Position numbers and translations under genes: made by a program | Shown: positions 2,644 through 55,259 of the stretch, in pieces | Numbering within the stretch: the stretch's first letter is position 1 | How the letters are laid out: each line of letters starts with the position of its first letter | Virus record (IMG/VR): IMGVR_UViG_3300023184_005048 | Span: 1-55,259 of that record | DNA from: a virus | Length of the DNA: 55,259 nucleotides | Reading direction: 5' to 3' (one strand) | Notes under the pieces: generated by a model | Told to the model about the DNA's origin: nothing | Database searches by the model: none | Seen by the model: only the letters and a program-made list of their open reading frames with translations

Positions 2644-3508
2644 AATATTTGAGTCTAATAGCCAATATGGTATTCACGATTGGATTGAAGATCTTAAATC
2701 TTGGGAGTGGAGTAGACCTCAACAACAATCAGTTAATGAAAGTTCAATGAAAAAGTGGTCTGACCATTTTATTGGTGAAGGTTATTATGATAAAGTATCA
2801 AATCATGTTAATAAAATATTTGAAGCTCTAATCAAAGTTGATGAAGAAGAAATCCATATGAGGATGTATGATGTATATGATCAAATACCTTCATCTAAAG
2901 ATAAGTGGACTATGTGTTGTGTTGCTTATGGTGATGTAGAAAACTATGATAAACCAGATAGAAACAAGTATAATGGCTTAGTCACAGTTAGAAGTAAAGA
3001 TGAAAAAGATAGATTAAGAATAACTATTCATATTCTAAAAGCAATCGTTTCTCCAACACTTTATATTGGTTCTTGGCCCAATATGATGTTAAGACAAAGT
3101 GATGAGAGTTATTATGTAACTGATAAAAAATGGCAATGTCAAAACTTTAATATTGATGATTATTCGGATATTAAAGACGGTGCTGAATTTAATACAGATG
3201 ATTACAAAGGTAGAAAAGTTAAAATCTTTCAACACGATATAGATAAGAAGAAACAATATTCTATTGATAAGATAATTAGTATGTATGTACCAGCTGTTGT
3301 TATTGAGATTGGTAATAGAGATAATTCAATTGCCTCTGGTGGTATTAATCTTAAAAAGATAGAATTAATGATAGATGATGCTTTAGAATCTGTTTTACCA
3401 ACACTTGATTATAAAGAAGTAGTATTTGACAAATCTAGATTTGATAGACAGTTTGATGATAATACAGATATCTATGATTATACTATCAAGATTTTATTAA
3501 ACTTTTAA
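2621..3508 (+). CDS. hypothetical protein with N-terminal tag
   Basis: I chose the ATG giving MKYLKTYKIFES because it restores the tag seen on the upstream gene; a TTG one codon earlier is possible but less likely. The 295-residue product has no recognised domain, is soluble-looking and rich in Asp, Lys and Tyr, and ends in DYTIKILLNF. The DNA of the tag is almost identical to that of the upstream gene: 23 bases from the fourth codon match exactly. That points to recent duplication or recombination of the tag itself. This is the last gene of the tagged run; a hairpin-and-T terminator follows. Confidence 0.65.
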   Translation: MKYLKTYKIFESNSQYGIHDWIEDLKSWEWSRPQQQSVNESSMKKWSDHFIGEGYYDKVSNHVNKIFEALIKVDEEEIHMRMYDVYDQIPSSKDKWTMCCVAYGDVENYDKPDRNKYNGLVTVRSKDEKDRLRITIHILKAIVSPTLYIGSWPNMMLRQSDESYYVTDKKWQCQNFNIDDYSDIKDGAEFNTDDYKGRKVKIFQHDIDKKKQYSIDKIISMYVPAVVIEIGNRDNSIASGGINLKKIELMIDDALESVLPTLDYKEVVFDKSRFDRQFDDNTDIYDYTIKILLNF

Positions 3509-41886: not shown

Positions 41887-42270
41887 ATGGAAAAAAAGAA
41901 AAGACCTGATAGTTTTGTAGAAAATCGAATGAGTAAGACTTATCCAACGGAAATTGGCGCACCAAAATTTGAGCCAGATAATATTAGTCTATTTAAAATT
42001 GAAAAAACTTCTAAGATAAAAAAATACTATTCGTCAAAATTTGAAGAAATGACGAAAGAGTATGAAAAGCTAATGTCAGAAATTAAAATGAATGAAAGAC
42101 TTTATATGGCTACGCATAACTTTACACCAATCTCTGGTGAAATTTATCACTTATATAAAAAGGAATCCAATGAAGAATTCCTTTCTTTAATATCTCCGGA
42201 ACAATGGAAAAAATTTGAGTTTATCGGCTCTTTCAAATTTTTATCTGATGGAAGATGGGAGGTAGCTTAA
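41887..42270 (+). CDS. DUF2452-like protein
   Basis: The 127-residue protein fits this small family: TEIGAPKFEPD near the start, NERLYMATHNFTPISGEIYH in the middle, and LSLISPEQWKKFEFIGSF before the end. The family has no known activity. The sequence TATAAATA lies seven bases before the ATG. Its stop codon overlaps that of the convergent GlnRS gene. Confidence 0.7.
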   Translation: MEKKKRPDSFVENRMSKTYPTEIGAPKFEPDNISLFKIEKTSKIKKYYSSKFEEMTKEYEKLMSEIKMNERLYMATHNFTPISGEIYHLYKKESNEEFLSLISPEQWKKFEFIGSFKFLSDGRWEVA

Positions 42271-43871
42271 CCTACCCACCCTTCTTTCAAACTTACCGTT
42301 TTATTGAAACTTTTACCATCAGTATCTAAAATATAATACCCTTTTCTCATCATTTGAACTGGCTCCTTGACGTTTAAAACGTGAGGCTCAAAGATTGCCT
42401 TATCATTAATTATAAGTGAACCTGGGTTAATATAATTGATAAAATCATCTTCATTTTTATCTGGTGATTCATCATTAAATAATCTTTCATATTCATTTAC
42501 TCTAACTCTAACTCCGTGTTCAGCAGATACCCAGTGAATAGTTCCTTTAATTTTTCTTTCAAAAGTCATACCCGATCTTGTTAAAGGATCATAAGTACAC
42601 CTAATCTCAATAATTTCTCCTAATTCATTCTTTATAACTTCATTAGCCTTAATAACATAAGCACCTTTTAATCTTACTTCACCACCTAATTTTAATCTGT
42701 GGAATTTGTTATTGGCTTCTTCTCTGAAATCTTCCGCCTCAATAAATAATTCACCACTAAAAGGAATCATTCTCACTCCAGCACTTTCATCACCAGGATT
42801 GTTTTCAACCTCAACCATTTCAGTTCCCATATCCCAATTTGTAATAACTAACTTAACTGGCTCCATGACTCCCATTAATCTATTAGCAACTACATTCAAA
42901 TCAGTTCTTAAACATTCTTCTAAAAGTAAGTAAGAAACAACAGACTCTTTTCTAGTAACAGAAATTCTATCACAAAAATCTTTAATAGCATTTGGTGTAA
43001 AACCTCTTCTTCTTAATCCAGAAATAGTTGGCATTCTTGGATCATCCCAACCCGTAACATAAGATTCTTCTACAAGTCTTTTTAACTTTCTCTTTGACAT
43101 AACTGTATAGTCAATGTTCAAACGAGCAAACTCAGTTTCTTCTGGTAATGAATTTTCTAAATCACAATTTTCTAACACCCACATATATAAAGGTCTATGA
43201 ACTTCAAATTCTAAAGTACAAAGTGAATCAGTGATACCTTCTTTATAATCAGATAAAGGATGAGCAAAGTCATACATTGGATAAATCTTCCAAGTATCAC
43301 CAGTTCTGTGATGTGACTTAGAGATTATTCTATAAATAACTGGATCTCTTAAAATCATATTTGGTGAAGTCATATCAATATTAGCTCTCAATATTTTAGA
43401 ACCTTCAGAGAATTCACCTAATCTCATTCTATTAAATAAGTCTAAGTTTTCTTCTACTGATCTAGACTTGTAAGGTGAGTCTTTACCAACTGAAGTTGGA
43501 GTTCCTTTCATTAAAGCAATTTCTTCAGATGTTGAATCATCAACATAAGCTAAGCCTTTTTTAATTAAAGTAACGGCACAATTATAAAGAAATTCAAAGT
43601 AATCAGATGTATAGAAAATATTAGCTGGTTTGTAGCCAAGCCATTCTATATCTTTTATAATTGACTCTACATAGTGAGTATCTTCAGTAGTTGGATTTGT
43701 ATCATCAAATCTTAGATTACAAGGTCTATTATACTTTTCAGCTAATCCGAAATTTAGTATAATGGATTTAGCGTGACCAATATGGAGATAACCATTTGGC
43801 TCTGGTGGAAATCTTAATGTTAGTTTATCAAGATTGTTTTTGTCTAATATTTTATCTTCAATGAAATTCAT
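42267..43871 (-). CDS. glnS: glutaminyl-tRNA synthetase
   Basis: The 534-residue enzyme is near full length (about 550 in E. coli). FPPEPNGYLHIGH at 21-33 is the class I HIGH motif with the GlnRS-specific lead, and VMSKRKL at 257-263 is the KMSKS loop. The C-terminal beta-barrel domains are present. It charges tRNA-Gln. Three tRNA-Gln(TTG) genes lie directly upstream on the same strand, 19 bases before the start, behind a poly-Gln leader and attenuator, so synthetase and substrate tRNAs are probably expressed together. Confidence 0.95.
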   Translation of the reverse strand: MNFIEDKILDKNNLDKLTLRFPPEPNGYLHIGHAKSIILNFGLAEKYNRPCNLRFDDTNPTTEDTHYVESIIKDIEWLGYKPANIFYTSDYFEFLYNCAVTLIKKGLAYVDDSTSEEIALMKGTPTSVGKDSPYKSRSVEENLDLFNRMRLGEFSEGSKILRANIDMTSPNMILRDPVIYRIISKSHHRTGDTWKIYPMYDFAHPLSDYKEGITDSLCTLEFEVHRPLYMWVLENCDLENSLPEETEFARLNIDYTVMSKRKLKRLVEESYVTGWDDPRMPTISGLRRRGFTPNAIKDFCDRISVTRKESVVSYLLLEECLRTDLNVVANRLMGVMEPVKLVITNWDMGTEMVEVENNPGDESAGVRMIPFSGELFIEAEDFREEANNKFHRLKLGGEVRLKGAYVIKANEVIKNELGEIIEIRCTYDPLTRSGMTFERKIKGTIHWVSAEHGVRVRVNEYERLFNDESPDKNEDDFINYINPGSLIINDKAIFEPHVLNVKEPVQMMRKGYYILDTDGKSFNKTVSLKEGWVG

Positions 43872-43889
43872 AATTTTTATATTTTTTAG

Positions 43890-43960
43890 TTGTCTCGCTA
43901 GGATTCGAACCTAGACTAGAAGAGTCAAAATCTTCTGTGCTGCCGTTACACTACGAGACA
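43890..43960 (-). tRNA. tRNA-Gln(TTG), copy nearest glnS
   Basis: Acceptor TGTCTCG/CGAGACA, anticodon arm GAAGA/TCTTC with loop TTTTGAC, and T loop TTCGAAT. It is similar to the third copy, with paired compensating changes in the acceptor stem, so both are likely functional. Confidence 0.9.
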
Positions 43961-43967
43961 TTTTTGT

Positions 43968-44038
43968 TGCTCCACTTGGACTCGAACCAAGCTCATCTGT
44001 TTCAAAGACAGATATGATCACCCATATACTATGGAGCA
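43968..44038 (-). tRNA. tRNA-Gln(TTG), middle copy
   Basis: Acceptor TGCTCCA/TGGAGCA, anticodon arm TCTGT/ACAGA with loop CTTTGAA, T loop TTCGAGT. It is clearly diverged from the two flanking Gln tRNAs. Confidence 0.9.
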
Positions 44039-44046
44039 AAATGTTG

Positions 44047-44117
44047 TTGTCTTACTAGGACTCGAACCTAGAATAGAAGAGTCAAAATCTTCTGTGTTGC
44101 CATTACACTATAAGACA
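44047..44117 (-). tRNA. tRNA-Gln(TTG), promoter-proximal copy
   Basis: Acceptor TGTCTTA/TAAGACA, loop TTTTGAC with anticodon TTG, T loop TTCGAGT. It lies directly behind the attenuator terminator. Confidence 0.9.
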
Positions 44118-44119
44118 AT

Positions 44120-44156
44120 AAAAAAACCCTACTCAATCAGATTGAATAGGGTTTGT
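44120..44156 (-). terminator. attenuator terminator before the tRNA-Gln/glnS module
   Basis: AAACCCTATTCAAT pairs with ATTGAGTAGGGTTT (14 bp with one G-T wobble) across the loop CTG, followed by a run of T on the minus strand. It lies between the poly-Gln leader and three tRNA-Gln genes. Confidence 0.9.
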
Positions 44157-44182: not shown

Positions 44183-44236
44183 TCAATCTGTTCGATTAAT
44201 TTGTTGTTGTTGTTGGTATTGTGATGTTGTTGTCAT
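44183..44236 (-). CDS. 17-residue poly-glutamine leader peptide
   Basis: The frame reads MTTTSQYQQQQQINRTD, with one CAA, a Tyr codon and then five CAA codons in a row. CAA is the codon read by the three tRNA-Gln(TTG) encoded just downstream. The stop codon lies about 27 nt before the base of the terminator stem. The last two codons plus stop contain CAGATTGA, complementary to TCAATCTG in the terminator. The layout is that of an amino-acid attenuation leader; translation has not been shown. Confidence 0.75.
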   Translation of the reverse strand: MTTTSQYQQQQQINRTD

Positions 44237-44267
44237 AATTCTATTTATTAATATTTTGTTTCTTTGT

Positions 44268-44343
44268 CGAGATGGCAGGATTCGAACCTGCGAGTTCTCC
44301 TGCTCCCAAAGCAGGCGGGGTAACCGGACTCCCCAACATCTCG
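44268..44343 (-). tRNA. tRNA-Pro(TGG)
   Basis: Acceptor CGAGATG/CATCTCG, anticodon arm CCTGC/GCAGG with loop TTTGGGA, T loop TTCGAAT. Confidence 0.92.
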
Positions 44344-44350
44344 TATTTTA

Positions 44351-44426
44351 GCGGTCCCGACGGGATTCGAACCCGCACCTCGCACCGTGACAGGGTGGTA
44401 TTGTAAACCATTCAACCACGGGACCG
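44351..44426 (-). tRNA. tRNA-Asp(GTC), first of two
   Basis: Acceptor CGGTCCC/GGGACCG, anticodon loop CTGTCAC closed by CCACC/GGTGC-type pairing, T loop TTCGAAT. A 63-nt spacer with small hairpins separates it from the next tRNA upstream. Confidence 0.88.
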
Positions 44427-44488
44427 TTTTTGAGAATTCTTTTACTCTATTCTCTAAAGAGTATCTTTTGCCTCAAAGGCTACTTGTT

Positions 44489-44562
44489 GCGGTCTAGAAG
44501 GGTTTCGATCCCTCTACTTCTGCGTGACAGGCAGATATGATAGCCACTTCACCACTAGACCA
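44489..44562 (-). tRNA. tRNA-Asp(GTC), second, with altered T loop
   Basis: Acceptor TGGTCTA/TAGACCG, anticodon arm TCTGC/GCAGA with loop CTGTCAC. The T loop reads ATCGAAA, with A in place of the near-universal T54. Confidence 0.8.
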
Positions 44563-44569
44563 TTTTTGT

Positions 44570-44641
44570 CGGGAAGGTCGGAATCGAACCGACTAACTGA
44601 AGCCTCCAGAGCCCCCGTGCTTAAACCTTAGTCACTTCCCG
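44570..44641 (-). tRNA. tRNA, anticodon uncertain (TGG Pro or CTG Gln)
   Basis: Perfect acceptor CGGGAAG/CTTCCCG and T arm with loop TTCGATT are present. The best anticodon arm, GGGGC/GCTTC, leaves loop TCTGGAG, giving TGG with a C at position 33; shifting by one gives CTG with poor stem pairing. Either identity belongs to the Pro/Gln/Asp set of this block. Confidence 0.65.
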
Positions 44642-44654
44642 TTTTTTATATAAA

Positions 44655-44689
44655 ACAAAAAACCCAGTTAATCTTTCGACTAACTGGGT
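44655..44689 (-). terminator. attenuator terminator before the Asp/Pro tRNA block
   Basis: ACCCAGTTA and TAACTGGGT pair perfectly around a ten-base loop, followed by a T run on the minus strand. It lies between a leader frame and the first tRNA. Confidence 0.9.
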
Positions 44690-44712: not shown

Positions 44713-44811
44713 TTAACCTAAAACTACATAGTTAGCCTCTTTCGAACCAGGATCCTGATCGATTACAACTTGCGGTTGCGGGTTAACGATATTTAAGTTT
44801 AAGTTTTTCAT
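44713..44811 (-). CDS. 32-residue Pro/Gln/Asp-rich leader peptide
   Basis: The peptide starts MKNLNLNIV and its middle reads NPQPQVVIDQDP at residues 10-21, in which eight of twelve residues are Pro, Gln or Asp. These are the amino acids of the assigned tRNAs downstream (Asp x2, Pro, then Gln x3). Codons 26-28 contain CTAACT, complementary to AGTTAG in the terminator 5' arm. The stop precedes the terminator by 23 nt. The start lies after a CTTTTTAATATATAC element shared with the leader at the right end of the window. Confidence 0.7.
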   Translation of the reverse strand: MKNLNLNIVNPQPQVVIDQDPGSKEANYVVLG

Positions 44812-50535: not shown

Positions 50536-50565
50536 AAGCCTCTGATTTTTCAGAGGCTTTCTTTT
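50536..50565. terminator. bidirectional intrinsic terminator
   Basis: AAGCCTCTGA and TCAGAGGCTT pair closely with A and T runs on either side, ending both the virion gene (plus) and the GluRS gene (minus). Confidence 0.85.
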
Positions 50566-52190
50566 TATAAAGTATTTTGAATTCTTATTAATGACTCATC
50601 CCTACCAAGGATTTCCATTGTTGATACCAAGTCTGGACCCGGCATACCACCTGTGATAGCAACTCTTAAAGCTGGCATTATCTTACCCATCTTAACACCC
50701 ATTTCTTGACAAAGATCGTGAATATTTTGTTTAATAGTCTCAGCATTCCAATCAATTGACTTTGTTATAAAAGCACTAAATACTTTCTTATAATCATCAG
50801 TCAATAACTTAACATCTGTTTCTTTAATCACAATTGGCTTAAAGAAGATATCAGCAACCACTTGTAAATCTTTTGTGAAGACCGCTCTCTTTTTACAGAT
50901 ATCCACAATCTTAGAAAGATTTTCTGGTGAATATTGATATTGGTCACCCATATCAATATTAGAAAGAAGTTCATCATCACTTCTATAAGTGTTCAAATGT
51001 TGAGCATTAAAGTGTTTAGCTTTTTCAACATCAAAACGAGCACCGGCTTTATGAACGTGAGATAAATCAAACTTAGAAATCATATCAGCCATTGTCATTA
51101 CTTCAGTAGTATCAGTTGGAGACCAACCTAATAGTACTAAGAAGTTTAACATAGCTTGTGGTTCATAACCTTCATCTTTGAAACCAAGATATTTAACCAT
51201 ATTACCTTTATCATCTTCTCCTTCACCACCCATCGGGAAAGCAGGAATACCCATAGAAAGAGCTTTACGTTTAGACAACTTGCCTTTACCATCTGGATTT
51301 AAAATCAATGGTAAATGAGCAAAAGTAGGAGCAGTCCAACCAAATGCTTCATATAACATTAAATGAAGCGGAGTTGAAGGTAGCCATTCTTCACCACGAA
51401 TAACGTGAGTTGTTCCCATATCATGGTCGTCACAAACATTAGCCATATGATATGTTGGAATACCATTTGATTTAACTAAAACTTTATCATCAGTTTGATT
51501 TGTATTCAAACTAACTTCACCACGAATAACATCAGTAACAGTAATTGTTCTGTTTTCTGGTGTTTTGAAACGAATTACAAATGGAGTTTTATTAGCAAGT
51601 AAAGCATCAACTTCTTCTTTTGGTAAAGAAAGTGAATTTCTCATTGACATACGAGTTTTAGCATCGTAAGCAAAGTGAGCATTTTCAGCTCTAACTTTAG
51701 CAATATCTTCTTCAGTATCAAAAGCATAATAAGCCATACCCTTATCTAAAAGAGTTTGAATATGTTCAGAGTAATCTCTTTCCGATTGACGGTAAGGACC
51801 ATTAGGACCACCTTTCCAAGGCGCATAGTCTGGTTCAATACCACACCACTCTAAAGAATCTTGGATATACTTTTCAGCATCACCAACAAATCTTTTTTGG
51901 TCAGTATCTTCAATACGAACATAAAATATACCACCGTGTTTTTTAGCAAACAGATAGTTATAAAGGGCAGTACGAACTCCACCGATGTGTAGAAATCCTG
52001 TTGGTGAAGGAGCAAAACGAGTTACTACTTTACCGGAAGGTGTAATAGTATCTAAAGCATCCAAACTTTTTTGAACATCAGGGGATTGTCCATCATCATG
52101 AGTCGCAAGTGTATGAAGAGCATCGTCACTCATTTCACTTTTTGATTCAGCGAGAAATTTATCTCTATTTTTAATGTATTTCATGTCCAT
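50565..52190 (-). CDS. gltX: glutamyl-tRNA synthetase with tagged N-terminal extension
   Basis: The catalytic enzyme begins near residue 54: RFAPSPTGFLHIGG at 58-71 (HIGH motif) and KLSKRKA at 304-310 (KMSKS loop), with the GluRS-type HVIRGEEWL between. The chain is 541 residues, about 70 longer than E. coli GltX. Roughly 53 extra residues lie at the N-terminus, starting MDMKYIKNRDKFLAES. This resembles the shared tag with a cleavage-like LAE-S site. The extension is otherwise hydrophilic and contains no known domain. The gene sits alone, without an attenuator, apart from the tRNA arrays. Confidence 0.93.
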   Translation of the reverse strand: MDMKYIKNRDKFLAESKSEMSDDALHTLATHDDGQSPDVQKSLDALDTITPSGKVVTRFAPSPTGFLHIGGVRTALYNYLFAKKHGGIFYVRIEDTDQKRFVGDAEKYIQDSLEWCGIEPDYAPWKGGPNGPYRQSERDYSEHIQTLLDKGMAYYAFDTEEDIAKVRAENAHFAYDAKTRMSMRNSLSLPKEEVDALLANKTPFVIRFKTPENRTITVTDVIRGEVSLNTNQTDDKVLVKSNGIPTYHMANVCDDHDMGTTHVIRGEEWLPSTPLHLMLYEAFGWTAPTFAHLPLILNPDGKGKLSKRKALSMGIPAFPMGGEGEDDKGNMVKYLGFKDEGYEPQAMLNFLVLLGWSPTDTTEVMTMADMISKFDLSHVHKAGARFDVEKAKHFNAQHLNTYRSDDELLSNIDMGDQYQYSPENLSKIVDICKKRAVFTKDLQVVADIFFKPIVIKETDVKLLTDDYKKVFSAFITKSIDWNAETIKQNIHDLCQEMGVKMGKIMPALRVAITGGMPGPDLVSTMEILGRDESLIRIQNTL

Positions 52191-53207: not shown

Positions 53208-53229
53208 TTTTATTGGTTTTTTTATCGAG

Positions 53230-53310
53230 TATCAGAAGAGAGACTTGAACTCTCATACCGTTAGGCGCTGGCTTTTGAAACCAGTGTGTATACCATTCCA
53301 CCATTCTGAC
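53230..53310 (-). tRNA. tRNA-Leu(CAA)
   Basis: Acceptor GTCAGAA/TTCTGAT, anticodon arm CTGGT/GCCAG with loop TTCAAAA, class II variable arm, T loop TTCAAGT. Confidence 0.88.
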
Positions 53311-53315
53311 ATTTG

Positions 53316-53385
53316 TAGCGTGTGTGGGGTTCGAACCCACTTATCAGTCCTTATGAGAGACAGCTCTTTTCCACTAAGCCACGCC
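53316..53385 (-). tRNA. tRNA-Met(CAT), elongator type
   Basis: Anticodon loop CTCATAA and T arm GTGGG/CCCAC with loop TTCGAAC. Position 1 pairs in the acceptor and the stem under the loop lacks the three G-C pairs of initiators, so it should be an elongator (or an Ile tRNA if C34 is modified). Confidence 0.8.
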
Positions 53386-53395
53386 ATATTATTAG

Positions 53396-53478
53396 TGCCC
53401 AAAGAGAGACTCGAACTCTCACGTCCTTTCGGACACCGGCTTCTTAGACCGGCGTGTCTACCATTCCACCATCTGGGC
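53396..53478 (-). tRNA. tRNA-Leu(AAG)
   Basis: Acceptor GCCCAGA/TTTGGGC, anticodon arm CCGGT/GCCGG with loop CTAAGAA, a class II variable arm with GTCC/GGAC and T loop TTCGAGT. A at position 34 is unusual for a bacterial Leu tRNA. Confidence 0.85.
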
Positions 53479-53482
53479 ATTT

Positions 53483-53557
53483 GAGCAGATACCCAGAGTC
53501 GAACTGGAATCTCGTCCGTACCAAGGACGTGTAATCACCGATTATACGATAACTGCT
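53483..53557 (-). tRNA. tRNA-Thr(GGT)
   Basis: Anticodon arm CGTCC/GGACG with loop TTGGTAC; T loop TTCGACT. The acceptor pairs AGCAG with CTGCT, with mismatches next to the T stem. Confidence 0.85.
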
Positions 53558-53562
53558 TGTTG

Positions 53563-53649
53563 TAGCGGGGGCAGGATTCGAACCTGACGTGTCACTTGCG
53601 CAACCCTGGGTTATGAGCCCAGTGAGTTTGACCTCTACTCTACCCCGCG
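53563..53649 (-). tRNA. initiator tRNA-fMet(CAT) with extended variable region
   Basis: The body starts CGCGGGGT and ends CCCCCGCTA, so position 1 C faces T instead of pairing, the initiator hallmark (C-A in E. coli). The anticodon arm CTGGG/CCCAG around CTCATAA has the three G-C pairs needed for initiation. The variable region is about 18 nt rather than about 5. Confidence 0.8.
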
Positions 53650-53654
53650 ATATG

Positions 53655-53739
53655 TACCTGGAGCGGGACTCGAACCCGCACGGGCATTTCTGCCCACTGG
53701 ATTTTAAGTCCAGCGTGTCTACCATTCCACCACCCAGGC
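53655..53739 (-). tRNA. tRNA-Leu(TAA)
   Basis: Acceptor GCCTGGG/TCCAGGT, anticodon arm CTGGA/TCCAG with loop CTTAAAA, class II variable arm GGGCA/TGCCC, T loop TTCGAGT. Confidence 0.92.
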
Positions 53740-53755
53740 AGGTGATTTTATTTTG

Positions 53756-53839
53756 AGCCGATGGAGGGACTCGAACCCCCGTTGGACTATTCGTCTCTGG
53801 TTTACAAAACCAGTGCTGTCGCCACTGAGCCACATCGGC
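53756..53839 (-). tRNA. tRNA-Thr(TGT) with long variable arm
   Basis: Acceptor GCCGATG/CATCGGC, anticodon arm CTGGT/ACCAG with loop TTTGTAA. The variable region is about 16 nt with a GAC/GTC mini-stem, unlike normal class I Thr tRNAs. Confidence 0.82.
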
Positions 53840-53866
53840 ATATAATGGAGGAAAGTCTAAAGAGTG

Positions 53867-53939
53867 ATTTTACTGAAGGACTTGAACCTTCAAAAGTTTG
53901 TTTTTAAGACAAATGTGTATACCATTTCACGAAGTAACA
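53867..53939 (-). tRNA. class I tRNA with TAA anticodon, flanked by complementary arms
   Basis: The acceptor TGTTACT/AGTAAAA (six of seven pairs), a short 3-bp D stem, the anticodon arm TTTGT/ACAAA with loop CTTAAAA, and the T arm GAAGG/CCTTC are present. The variable region is only five bases, so the body is not that of a Leu tRNA although the anticodon is. Outer sequences (AAGAGTG/CACTCTT and AATGGA/TCCATT) continue the helix beyond the acceptor with bulges. Confidence 0.7.
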
Positions 53940-53964
53940 CTCTTAATCACCATCCATTATTTTG

Positions 53965-54037
53965 TTGCCTTGGTGGGTAACGATCCCACTACCTCTTCCA
54001 TGTCAAGGAAGTGCTCTCCCATTGAGCTACAAGGCAA
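53965..54037 (-). tRNA. tRNA-Val(GAC) with swapped T loop
   Basis: Acceptor TTGCCTT/AAGGCAA, anticodon arm CTTCC/GGAAG with loop TTGACAT. The T arm GTGGG/CCCAC closes loop ATCGTTA instead of TTCGANN. Confidence 0.85.
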
Positions 54038-54044
54038 TTTTTGA

Positions 54045-54189
54045 CAGTAGGGTGGGAATCGAACCCACCTTCCCAATCCGAACTAAATGACATTTTCTAG
54101 AATATCAAATAATCAAGTTTGGTTTTTAACCCGGACCAGTTCTTTATGTGGCTTCTCTAGGAGTTACCACCTAATATAGGGTCCTACTG
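54045..54189 (-). ncRNA. 145-nt tRNA-like RNA with giant variable region
   Basis: A perfect acceptor CAGTAGG/CCTACTG and a perfect T arm GTGGG/CCCAC with loop TTCGATT enclose a 5' D-arm-like stretch with GGTGG and then more than 60 extra nucleotides. TCCGGGTT and AGTTCGGA can pair inside the extra region as an 8-bp arm, with further hairpins within. A four-pair GCCA/TGGT stem with a ten-base loop could be a modified anticodon arm, but no anticodon is clear. Confidence 0.6.
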
Positions 54190-54194
54190 ATTTG

Positions 54195-54266
54195 AGCTTC
54201 TTACCGGTAACGATCCGATTTCTCTAGTTTACAAGACTAGCGCATCACCATTAATGCTTAAGAAGC
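54195..54266 (-). tRNA. tRNA-Thr(TGT), second, with swapped T loop
   Basis: Acceptor GCTTCTT/AAGAAGC, anticodon arm CTAGT/ACTAG with loop CTTGTAA. T loop ATCGTTA. Confidence 0.85.
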
Positions 54267-54271
54267 GTTTG

Positions 54272-54354
54272 AGGTACTGACTGGGTTCGAACCAGTGTGA
54301 CAGATTTTGCAGATCTGTGCCTCTCGTCTTTCGACACCACTCGGCCACAGTACC
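54272..54354 (-). tRNA. tRNA-Cys(GCA) with hairpin in the D loop
   Basis: Acceptor GGTACTG/CAGTACC, anticodon arm CAGAT/ATCTG with loop CTGCAAA, T loop TTCGAAC. The D loop is enlarged by a GTCGAAAGAC mini-hairpin. Confidence 0.85.
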
Positions 54355-54360
54355 ATTTGT

Positions 54361-54432
54361 TGGAATAGTAGGACTCGAACCTACAACCTTTCGCGTATCA
54401 GGCGAATGCTCTAACCAGTTGAGCTATATTCC
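54361..54432 (-). tRNA. tRNA-Ile(GAT)
   Basis: Acceptor GGAATAT/TATTCC-type, anticodon arm TTCGC/GCGAA with loop CTGATAC, T loop TTCGAGT; a normal class I body. Confidence 0.92.
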
Positions 54433-54439
54433 AATTTTG

Positions 54440-54512
54440 TAGTCCCGGTCGGTTACGATCCGACTCCCTCCACTATGTAACAGTGGCGCTCCCCCGATTG
54501 AGCTACAGGACT
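54440..54512 (-). tRNA. tRNA-Val(TAC) with swapped T loop
   Basis: Acceptor AGTCCTG/CGGGACT, anticodon arm CCACT/AGTGG with loop GTTACAT. T arm GTCGG/CCGAC closes loop ATCGTAA. Confidence 0.85.
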
Positions 54513-54517
54513 ATTTG

Positions 54518-54603
54518 CTGATGAGGTGGGACTCGAACCCACGGTGGACTTTAATGTCGTCTGGTTAACAGCCAGGCCCTTTCGCCGCTCAGGACACCCA
54601 TCA
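54518..54603 (-). tRNA. tRNA with Asn anticodon (GTT) on a class II body
   Basis: Acceptor TGATGGG/CTCATCA with one mismatch, anticodon loop CTGTTAA closed by CTGG/CCAG, and a 17-nt variable arm with GAC/GTC. The D region (CCTGAGCGGCGAAAGGG) is also of class II type. Confidence 0.75.
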
Positions 54604-54609
54604 ATTTTG

Positions 54610-54692
54610 TACCGAAGGTGGGACTCGAACCCACACACCCTTTCGGGTACTAGCTCCTAAGGCTAGCGTGTCTACCATTCCACCACTTCGGC
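54610..54692 (-). tRNA. tRNA-Leu(TAG)
   Basis: Acceptor GCCGAAG/CTTCGGT, anticodon arm CTAGC/GCTAG with loop CTTAGGA, class II variable arm ACCC/GGGT, T loop TTCGAGT. Confidence 0.92.
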
Positions 54693-54696
54693 ATCT

Positions 54697-54801
54697 GAGT
54701 GTGATAGGGTATTCTCCTACAGTTGTGGTGGTTGACTAGTCCCATTGTCCACTCCAGTACTTCGTCTGGTGCTGTTTTAGTTTATCAGCGTTTACACACT
54801 C
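54697..54801 (-). ncRNA. 105-nt RNA with tRNA-like ends but no canonical T loop
   Basis: A perfect 7-bp end stem GAGTGTG/CACACTC is in register with the tRNA array. Near the 3' end TAGG/CCTA encloses AGAATAC where a T arm would lie. Inside, CCAG/CTGG and GTGG/CCAC stems can form. No anticodon can be assigned. Confidence 0.45.
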
Positions 54802-54806
54802 TTTGT

Positions 54807-54878
54807 AGTCTCCACGGGATTCGAACCCGTATTCTCAGTTTAGAAGACTGATGTCCTATCCAGTTGGACGAGGAAACT
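54807..54878 (-). tRNA. tRNA-Arg(TCT)
   Basis: Acceptor AGTTTCC/GGAGACT, anticodon arm with CAGT/ACTG and loop CTTCTAA, T loop TTCGAAT. Confidence 0.9.
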
Positions 54879-54883
54879 ATTTG

Positions 54884-54955
54884 CTCACTGGGGGAATTAC
54901 GATATCCCGACCTGACGCTTAACAGGCGCCTGCTCTACCTCTGAGCTACCAGTGA
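54884..54955 (-). tRNA. tRNA-Asn(GTT) with swapped T loop
   Basis: Acceptor TCACTGG/CCAGTGA, anticodon arm GGCGC/GCGTC with loop CTGTTAA. T loop ATCGTAA; the pair closing that loop is T-T. Confidence 0.82.
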
Positions 54956-54961
54956 ATGTTG

Positions 54962-55046
54962 TCGGTAGGGTGGGATTTGAACCCACGTTGTGATTTCTCA
55001 CCTAGTGTATCAGACTAGTCCCTGAAGACCGCTCGGGTACCTACCG
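54962..55046 (-). tRNA. tRNA with Ile anticodon (GAT) on a class II body
   Basis: Acceptor CGGTAGG/CCTACCG, anticodon arm CTAGT/ACTAG with loop CTGATAC, and a variable hairpin GTGA-GAAA-TCAC. The D region ACCCGAGCGGTCTTCAGGG resembles class II tRNAs. It is the promoter-proximal tRNA of the array. Confidence 0.75.
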
Positions 55047-55061: not shown

Positions 55062-55091
55062 AAAAAAACCCTCAGATTTTGTGTCTGAGGG
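55062..55091 (-). terminator. attenuator terminator before the large tRNA array
   Basis: CCCTCAGA pairs with TCTGAGGG around an eight-base loop, followed by seven T on the minus strand. It stands between a leader frame and the first tRNA. Confidence 0.9.
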
Positions 55092-55122
55092 TTTCGAGTA
55101 TTCTTTATTAAAATTTGTTATA

Positions 55123-55233
55123 TTAACTAACAAATCGTTTAGATATGACGAAGCCCTCAGAGCGTCTAATACATAACGTATTATTCACCACTGTCAGTGT
55201 ATTCATGTTCATATTTAAATTCATTGTTTTCAT
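55123..55233 (-). CDS. 36-residue leader peptide matched to the tRNA array
   Basis: The peptide begins MKTMNLNMNMNTLTVVNNTL and continues CIRR. Of its first 24 residues 23 are Met, Asn, Leu, Thr, Val, Cys, Ile or Arg, exactly the amino acids of the assigned tRNAs behind it. Codons 25-29 contain TCTGAGGGCTTCG, which can pair with CGAAACCCTCAGA at the terminator, 12 of 13 positions. The stop lies 31 nt before the terminator. The upstream element CTTTTTAATATATAC matches the other leader. The promoter is beyond the window. Confidence 0.7.
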   Translation of the reverse strand: MKTMNLNMNMNTLTVVNNTLCIRRSEGFVISKRFVS

Positions 55234-55259
55234 TGTTGTATATATTAAAAAGTTTTTGT

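Follow-up and report, generated by a model that had tools for sequence, protein, structure and literature searches.

Giant bacterial viruses seem, judging from their sequences, to keep clusters of tRNA genes behind a ribosome-stall switch written in the amino acids of those same tRNAs. The window analysed here, the whole 55,259-nucleotide stretch of IMG/VR virus record IMGVR_UViG_3300023184_005048, includes a region that is very probably a ribosome-mediated transcription attenuator controlling a phage tRNA array, in which stalling on a shortage of charged tRNA would lead to antitermination. The anatomy of this region, the match between codon set and tRNA set, the conservation of the reading frame and an alternative pairing with compensatory change were all found in the window and related genomes.

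The leader ORF on the minus strand (coordinates 55123..55233; ATG at 55233, stop at 55123) has 36 codons and encodes MKTMNLNMNMNTLTVVNNTLCIRRSEGFVISKRFVS. An intrinsic terminator (GAAACCCTCAGA-CACAAAA-TCTGAGGGTTTTTTT; 55062..55095, minus strand) lies between the leader and the tRNA array, with a gap of ~16 nt to the first tRNA. The sensor part of the leader is made up of codons 1–23, and an antiterminator segment, TCTGAGGGCTTCG (55149..55161, minus strand), which falls in codons 25–29, pairs with the 5' arm of the terminator. An earlier sequence-only reading had reported that 23 of the first 24 residues are Met, Asn, Leu, Thr, Val, Cys, Ile or Arg, and this was found to be correct, the sole outsider being K2. 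When the frequencies in the phage proteome were used to assess chance composition, as that reading had suggested, 21 of 22 residues belonged to the set against 42% expected (binomial p = 1.4e-7, a naive value, the codons of a leader not being drawn independently). The pairing it described between TCTGAGGGCTTCG (55161–55149) and CGAAACCCTCAGA of the terminator was also recovered, with 12 of 13 positions paired, and the duplex has a computed energy of -19.3 kcal/mol (z = -4.0 against dinucleotide shuffles).

The array behind the leader (53229..55046, minus strand) was delineated using ARAGORN and Rfam, and its order is Ile, Asn, Arg(tct), Leu, Asn, Val, Ile, Cys, Thr, Val, Leu, Thr, Leu, Met, Thr, Leu, (Met), Leu. 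ARAGORN called tRNAs for Ile, Asn, Arg(tct), Leu (five genes), Val (two), Thr (three) and Met. The tRNA-Cys at 54272–54354 was matched by Rfam and missed by ARAGORN, and its anticodon GCA was read by eye, as was the CAT anticodon of a weak tRNA at 53316–53385 that scored 28.6 bits, slightly below threshold. The claim that the array encodes tRNAs for just the amino acids of the leader thus holds for every identifiable tRNA, but is not assignable for two elements at 54037–54192 and 54693–54806 (minus strand), which have tRNA-like closing stems, no tRNA call and no clear anticodon.

The closest relatives of the window phage in the phage collection are LR756502.1 (642 kb) and LR745206.1 (634 kb). 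Genomes of >634 kb were placed by Al-Shayeb et al. in the Mahaphage clade, with Bacteroidetes as predicted hosts (PMC7162821); neither 'attenuat' nor 'leader' occurs in the text of that huge-phage paper (PMC7162821). Orthologues of the window leader are present in LR756502.1 (MKTMNLNMNLNTLTVVNNTLCIRPCEGFDLFNDL), LR745206.1 (MTTMNLNMTMNLTLNVVNITLCNIRPTEGSDLFREIVM), IMGVR 3300032236_002285 (MTTMNLNMNMNLTVVLNTLCIRRSEGFVISKRFVD) and IMGVR 3300049793_000366 (MKTLTVNMNLNNTMTTVVNITLCNIRPESGLVPICLKEKDIMR), the last a 508-kb relative in which the leader of the big array sits after the first tRNA-Met. A DNA search retrieved relatives, but a tblastn search with the 36-aa leader peptide gave no match; an exact-pattern search of IMG/VR with the terminator gave none either. 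The promoter of the window leader would lie beyond the contig end, but in the relatives a Bacteroidota-type promoter (TAnnTTTG) is visible ahead of the leader. In LR756502.1 and its relatives the TAnnTTTG box is located 55–65 nt upstream of leaders, often with TTGGTA or TTAGGTAGA farther up, and these shared boxes can be used to find further units.

The relatives were also examined for frame-breaking changes, and the sensor frame was found to be intact, all indels there being multiples of 3 nt. Conservation of the frame of the first part across five phages is also what a functional small phage protein would show. However, the tail beyond the antiterminator is not conserved (VISKRFVS vs DLFNDL vs DLFREIVM) and is out of frame in one relative, yet the DNA pairing is kept, and the composition of the peptide follows the tRNA set, so that such a protein is a most improbable explanation.

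Two further leader units are located in the window. The second leader ORF (44713..44811, minus strand), rich in Pro, Gln and Asp, encodes MKNLNLNIVNPQPQVVIDQDPGSKEANYVVLG and is followed by a terminator (ACCCAGTTAGTC-GAAA-GATTAACTGGGTTTTTT; 44657..44689, minus strand) and by tRNAs for Pro, Asp, Asp and Pro (44266..44640, minus strand), the first tRNA-Pro (44569–44640, minus strand) having the anticodon TGG, read by eye. The Gln-rich third leader ORF (44183..44236, minus strand), encoding MTTTSQYQQQQQINRTD, is followed by a terminator (44120..44156, minus strand), three tRNA-Gln genes (43889..44117, minus strand) and, as the last gene of the unit, glnS (42267..43871, minus strand), encoding a glutamine--tRNA ligase (TIGR00440, 655 bits; cut-off 426). 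A host origin of the glnS leader was considered and rejected, as no such leader was found at 80 cellular Bacteroidota glnS loci. No leader-terminator unit was seen upstream of gltX (50565–52190 in the window), and therefore not every synthetase is under attenuator control.

Whole records were scanned, blind to composition, for a promoter, a short ORF and a terminator, and GlnRS-bearing loci were added. In the window phage and its relatives ~50 leader-terminator units precede tRNA arrays or aminoacyl-tRNA synthetase genes, the identities of the synthetases having been verified with NCBIfam. Leader runs include QQQQQ ahead of tRNA-Gln and glnS, PQPQ..DQDP ahead of tRNA-Pro/Asp/Gln and SSRSRSS ahead of tRNA-Ser/Arg, and the Pro/Asp/Gln leader of the window (MKNLNLNIVNPQPQVVIDQDP...) and a Ser/Arg leader (MKTTIKNTSSRSRSSKSG...) are among these units. 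Other leaders are specific for Phe/His/Lys/Trp (MRTINKHKHFSKLNKWFS...) and Glu/Tyr/Ile/Gly/Ala (MNTLIYIGYIAEGGYEAG...). Among single synthetases, ileS is preceded by MNFNSIIIIRK... (IIII), asnS by an Asn leader, valS by a Val leader, leuS by a Leu leader and aspS by an Asp leader; the leader of a hisS-like gene has one His codon only.

The sequence-only reading had proposed that relatives with different tRNA sets should be compared, and there the leaders differ and match their own sets. In the distant relative G005 (contig 3300017700_000931) the tRNAs are grouped differently and the leaders are regrouped likewise. Its leader MMTMHIHMISISNWRRNSS (MHIHMISISNWRRNS) precedes tRNAs for Trp, Ser, His, Asn, Arg, Ile and Met; MNNFVNIVLLNSVLCLLVLE, which has no internal Met, precedes Cys, Val, Leu and Met; MKTVNNIFDFAFEAAEADC precedes Phe, Glu, Gln, Asp and Ala; and MNLTFVTYQPKQYTQGGKP precedes Pro, Gln, Tyr, Thr, Gly and Lys. 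Pooled over leaders, the cognate residues cover all 20 amino acids in LR756502.1, LR745206.1 and G005. The suggestion that the leader is one sensor for many tRNAs at once therefore appears right for the window array and understated for the phages, each of which has several such sensors. The match extends to isoacceptors. All Arg codons in the Ser/Arg leaders are CGN, and the tRNAs of these operons read CGN; AGA comes first for Arg in leaders of arrays with tRNA-Arg(tct); and a G005 leader uses both CGN and AGA in an operon with both kinds of tRNA-Arg. A less strict tendency was seen for Ile, with ATA accompanying tRNA-Ile(tat) and ATT tRNA-Ile(gat). Candidate suppressor tRNAs were also observed in relatives, one with anticodon TTA (UAA) in a Phe/Glu/Asp/Ala operon (G004 188250–188330) and two with anticodon CTA (UAG) (G002 121630–121702 and L312:2459–2532).

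Using one leader for each of 16 groups, the own-set score was 57.0, a value equalled by none of 200,000 permutations (mean 1.5, sd 6.4, maximum 32.5). At some single-synthetase sites one of two candidate ORFs had been picked, but the nine multi-amino-acid groups, unaffected by this except for two G4 leaders, gave the same result alone, with 0 of 200,000 permutations reaching the own-set score. The true assignment was also the best within LR756502.1 (1 of 50,000), LR745206.1 (0 of 50,000), G1 and G2 (81 of 50,000; 720 possible orders) and G5 (24 possible orders). An initial terminator scan for upstream copies had shown little overall excess over the downstream control, and the case therefore rests on composition, promoter and swap tests. 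As the genome is AT-rich, short ORFs are common in it, and the feature was picked by a reader among many, so the ORF could be accidental or unrelated, its composition due to chance and the terminator part of an upstream unit. This is very nearly excluded by the permutation tests, the frame-preserving indels, the repetition of the architecture in 46–50 units and the lack of room for a promoter after the terminator. On this last point, in 26 of the 46 units the T-run of the terminator is followed by a tRNA within 25 nt, too short a distance to fit another promoter, and RNA polymerase must thus cross the terminator to transcribe the array.

Stalls were modelled by folding the transcript as far as the terminator loop while a ribosome occupied one codon after another, its 3' edge being placed 13 nt past the start of the A-site codon (an assumed footprint). 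In 45 of 46 leaders, stalling in the sensor let the leader capture the 5' arm, which was mostly freed with the ribosome at the stop codon. For the window leader, 5'-arm sequestration was 0.9 with the ribosome stalled anywhere up to codon 20, and it was 0.82 at codon 21, 0.55 at 22, 0.24 at 23 and 0.07 at the stop. The boundary predicted by folding falls where the cognate codons end; the share of cognate residues is 64% before it and 19% after it (67% and 23%, p = 1e-14, with one leader per group). Compared with dinucleotide shuffles, leader-arm duplexes were also the stronger ones (mean z -2.6; 16 groups, p = 1e-10), and pairing with the own arm was much stronger than with arms taken from other operons (0 of 100,000), also when the comparison stayed within one genome. 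The pairing is conserved via compensatory change, as judged from 3300049793_000366 (G2), where the terminator stem is CCCAGATTC rather than CCCTCAGA and the leader segment GAATCTGGG rather than TCTGAGGG, and where the own duplex has -18.5 kcal/mol against -7.7 to -10.3 kcal/mol for swapped ones. At equilibrium the terminator is still favoured with the antiterminator segment free (0.74–0.97), and the switch must therefore act kinetically, during transcription, as is also assumed for known attenuators.

The units thus have a short ORF of conserved frame between promoter and genes, cognate regulatory codons, an intrinsic terminator before the first structural gene and a mutually exclusive antiterminator, the last as computed, and computed to be weak for the leuS leaders. 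If hairpin and leader acted not in termination but in stabilizing the polycistronic tRNA transcript or processing its 5' end, this would fit the position of the hairpin immediately before the first tRNA in many units. However, the U-run of an intrinsic terminator is present in all units, the hairpin is also found before synthetase ORFs, and the mutually exclusive second pairing partner would be without a role, making this reading very unlikely.

With the window leader almost entirely free (ribosome at codon 2) the antiterminator still forms (0.89). The layout therefore has three segments and reads 'on' without a ribosome, with no 1:2 protector hairpin as in the four-segment trp/his type. Failed translation would also turn the array on, which is consistent with a leader that senses slow translation generally (few ribosomes, antibiotics or host shut-off), its codon bias setting only the pause site. 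However, a general sensor needs no operon-specific codon sets, whereas the leaders follow the amino acids of the genes behind them, for Arg even in the choice between CGN and AGA, and a purely general sensor is considered improbable.

For a ribosome-mediated attenuator, we infer that the leader is translated, that ribosomes stall in it, that polymerase reads through and that a shortage of charged tRNA is the signal. RNA polymerase would start upstream, transcribe the short leader ORF and reach the terminator 16 nt ahead of the first tRNA. A ribosome that has moved past the first ~23 codons would mask TCTGAGGGCTTCG, allowing the terminator hairpin to form and transcription to end. If any one of the charged tRNAs for Met, Asn, Leu, Thr, Val, Cys, Ile or Arg (AGA) were scarce, the ribosome would stall in the sensor codons and leave TCTGAGGGCTTCG free to capture the terminator 5' arm, and polymerase would read through into the tRNA array. 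Across the phage family, further tRNA arrays and several synthetase genes would be controlled in the same way through codon sets of their own, and each tRNA group would therefore be switched on by a shortage of its own members.

Ribosome-mediated attenuators are classical in the trp, his, leu, thr and ilvGMEDA operons of E. coli. The phage units resemble them in having a leader ORF with regulatory codons, an intrinsic terminator and an alternative antiterminator, and the E. coli ilv and thr leaders also sense more than one amino acid. However, the E. coli attenuators control cellular biosynthetic enzymes and use four segments, whereas the phage units control tRNA arrays and synthetase genes, sense up to eight amino acids per leader and use three. 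Attenuated synthetase genes are known, namely pheST in gamma-proteobacteria and trpS and leuS in Streptomyces (PMC1262725), where a cognate-codon leader peptide likewise precedes the synthetase gene; unlike the phage units, these are cellular, respond to a single amino acid each and include no tRNA genes. Leader-peptide attenuation before amino-acid biosynthesis operons in Flavobacterium psychrophilum (PMC9723704) and leader-like candidate sORFs in Bacteroides thetaiotaomicron (PMC7366714) make the mechanism plausible in the phylum of the likely phage hosts, but such leaders were not reported before tRNA genes. T-box riboswitches perform the same job, making synthetase expression answer tRNA charging, but bind tRNA directly. 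As they control synthetase genes in Firmicutes, a T-box or another known leader RNA was considered; this is hardly credible, as a search of the window and relatives with Rfam at the gathering threshold gave tRNAs and one SRP RNA only, with no T-box, and the window leader gave only sub-threshold matches. The SRP RNA match, to the bacterial small SRP RNA, is borderline (40.9 bits, threshold 40) and lies on a phage contig (G005; L136:4795–4890). The open literature was searched (subscription papers and preprints being outside its scope), and no tRNA operon or phage gene under leader-peptide attenuation was found. The type of mechanism is thus known, but no earlier report was found of its use on tRNA arrays, in phages or with multi-amino-acid sensors.

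Leaders are absent from some tRNA and synthetase genes. Two of four tRNA operons in contig 3300000976_000009 (G004; 154340–154440 and 205730–205860) have a terminator, an antiterminator copy and near-identical promoters but no ATG leader, the start and first sensor codons being missing; in one, the codons for QYTQG.KP persist without a start. These are possibly locked-on alleles, assembly errors or a counter-example. Stretches of Lak-A1 and crAss-like cr127_1 have a single tRNA-Leu and no leader. Among out-of-sample loci, a Gln leader precedes four tRNA-Gln in contig L302, and a scan of IleRS loci added L304 and L319 to the contigs with IIII leaders, most other distant loci having none; the SerRS scan gave no new contig, and AsnRS relatives outside the group had no Asn leader. 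In L319 (IMGVR_UViG_3300031088_000737; 2760–3030), MKTLNTFVNSIIIIPKLPMS and a terminator precede ileS behind a sigma-70-like promoter (TTGACT/TATGAT), and the host therefore probably belongs to another phylum. The leader design may thus have arisen or spread outside phages of Bacteroidota. A Phe-rich leader-like ORF, MKTFFCITFFTNFTK, with a terminator was also observed in LR745206.1 (~587260–587420) before an unrelated-looking ORF; neither tRNA-Phe nor a Phe synthetase was seen to follow.

Attenuation is known from amino acid operons; with these findings it would also cover tRNA arrays, viruses and sensors for as many as eight amino acids, and the leader-terminator layout provides a sequence signature by which further cases can be found. 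Phage tRNAs that evade anticodon nucleases (PMC10264068) also tie phage tRNAs to host tRNA depletion, but that work concerns tRNA sequence rather than expression control and describes no attenuator. Here, the control region itself would tell when the tRNAs are wanted, namely when the cognate charged tRNAs are short, which speaks for replacing depleted tRNAs on demand rather than for constantly supplementing codon usage. A few attenuators would hold nearly the whole tRNA complement and jointly watch all 20 amino acids, and depletion of any charged tRNA, for instance through starvation, shut-off of the host or one of its anticodon nucleases, would induce only the replacing tRNA group and synthetase. 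The chances that these phages carry such an inducible tRNA-replacement system, which may serve in counter-defence, are judged to be about even.
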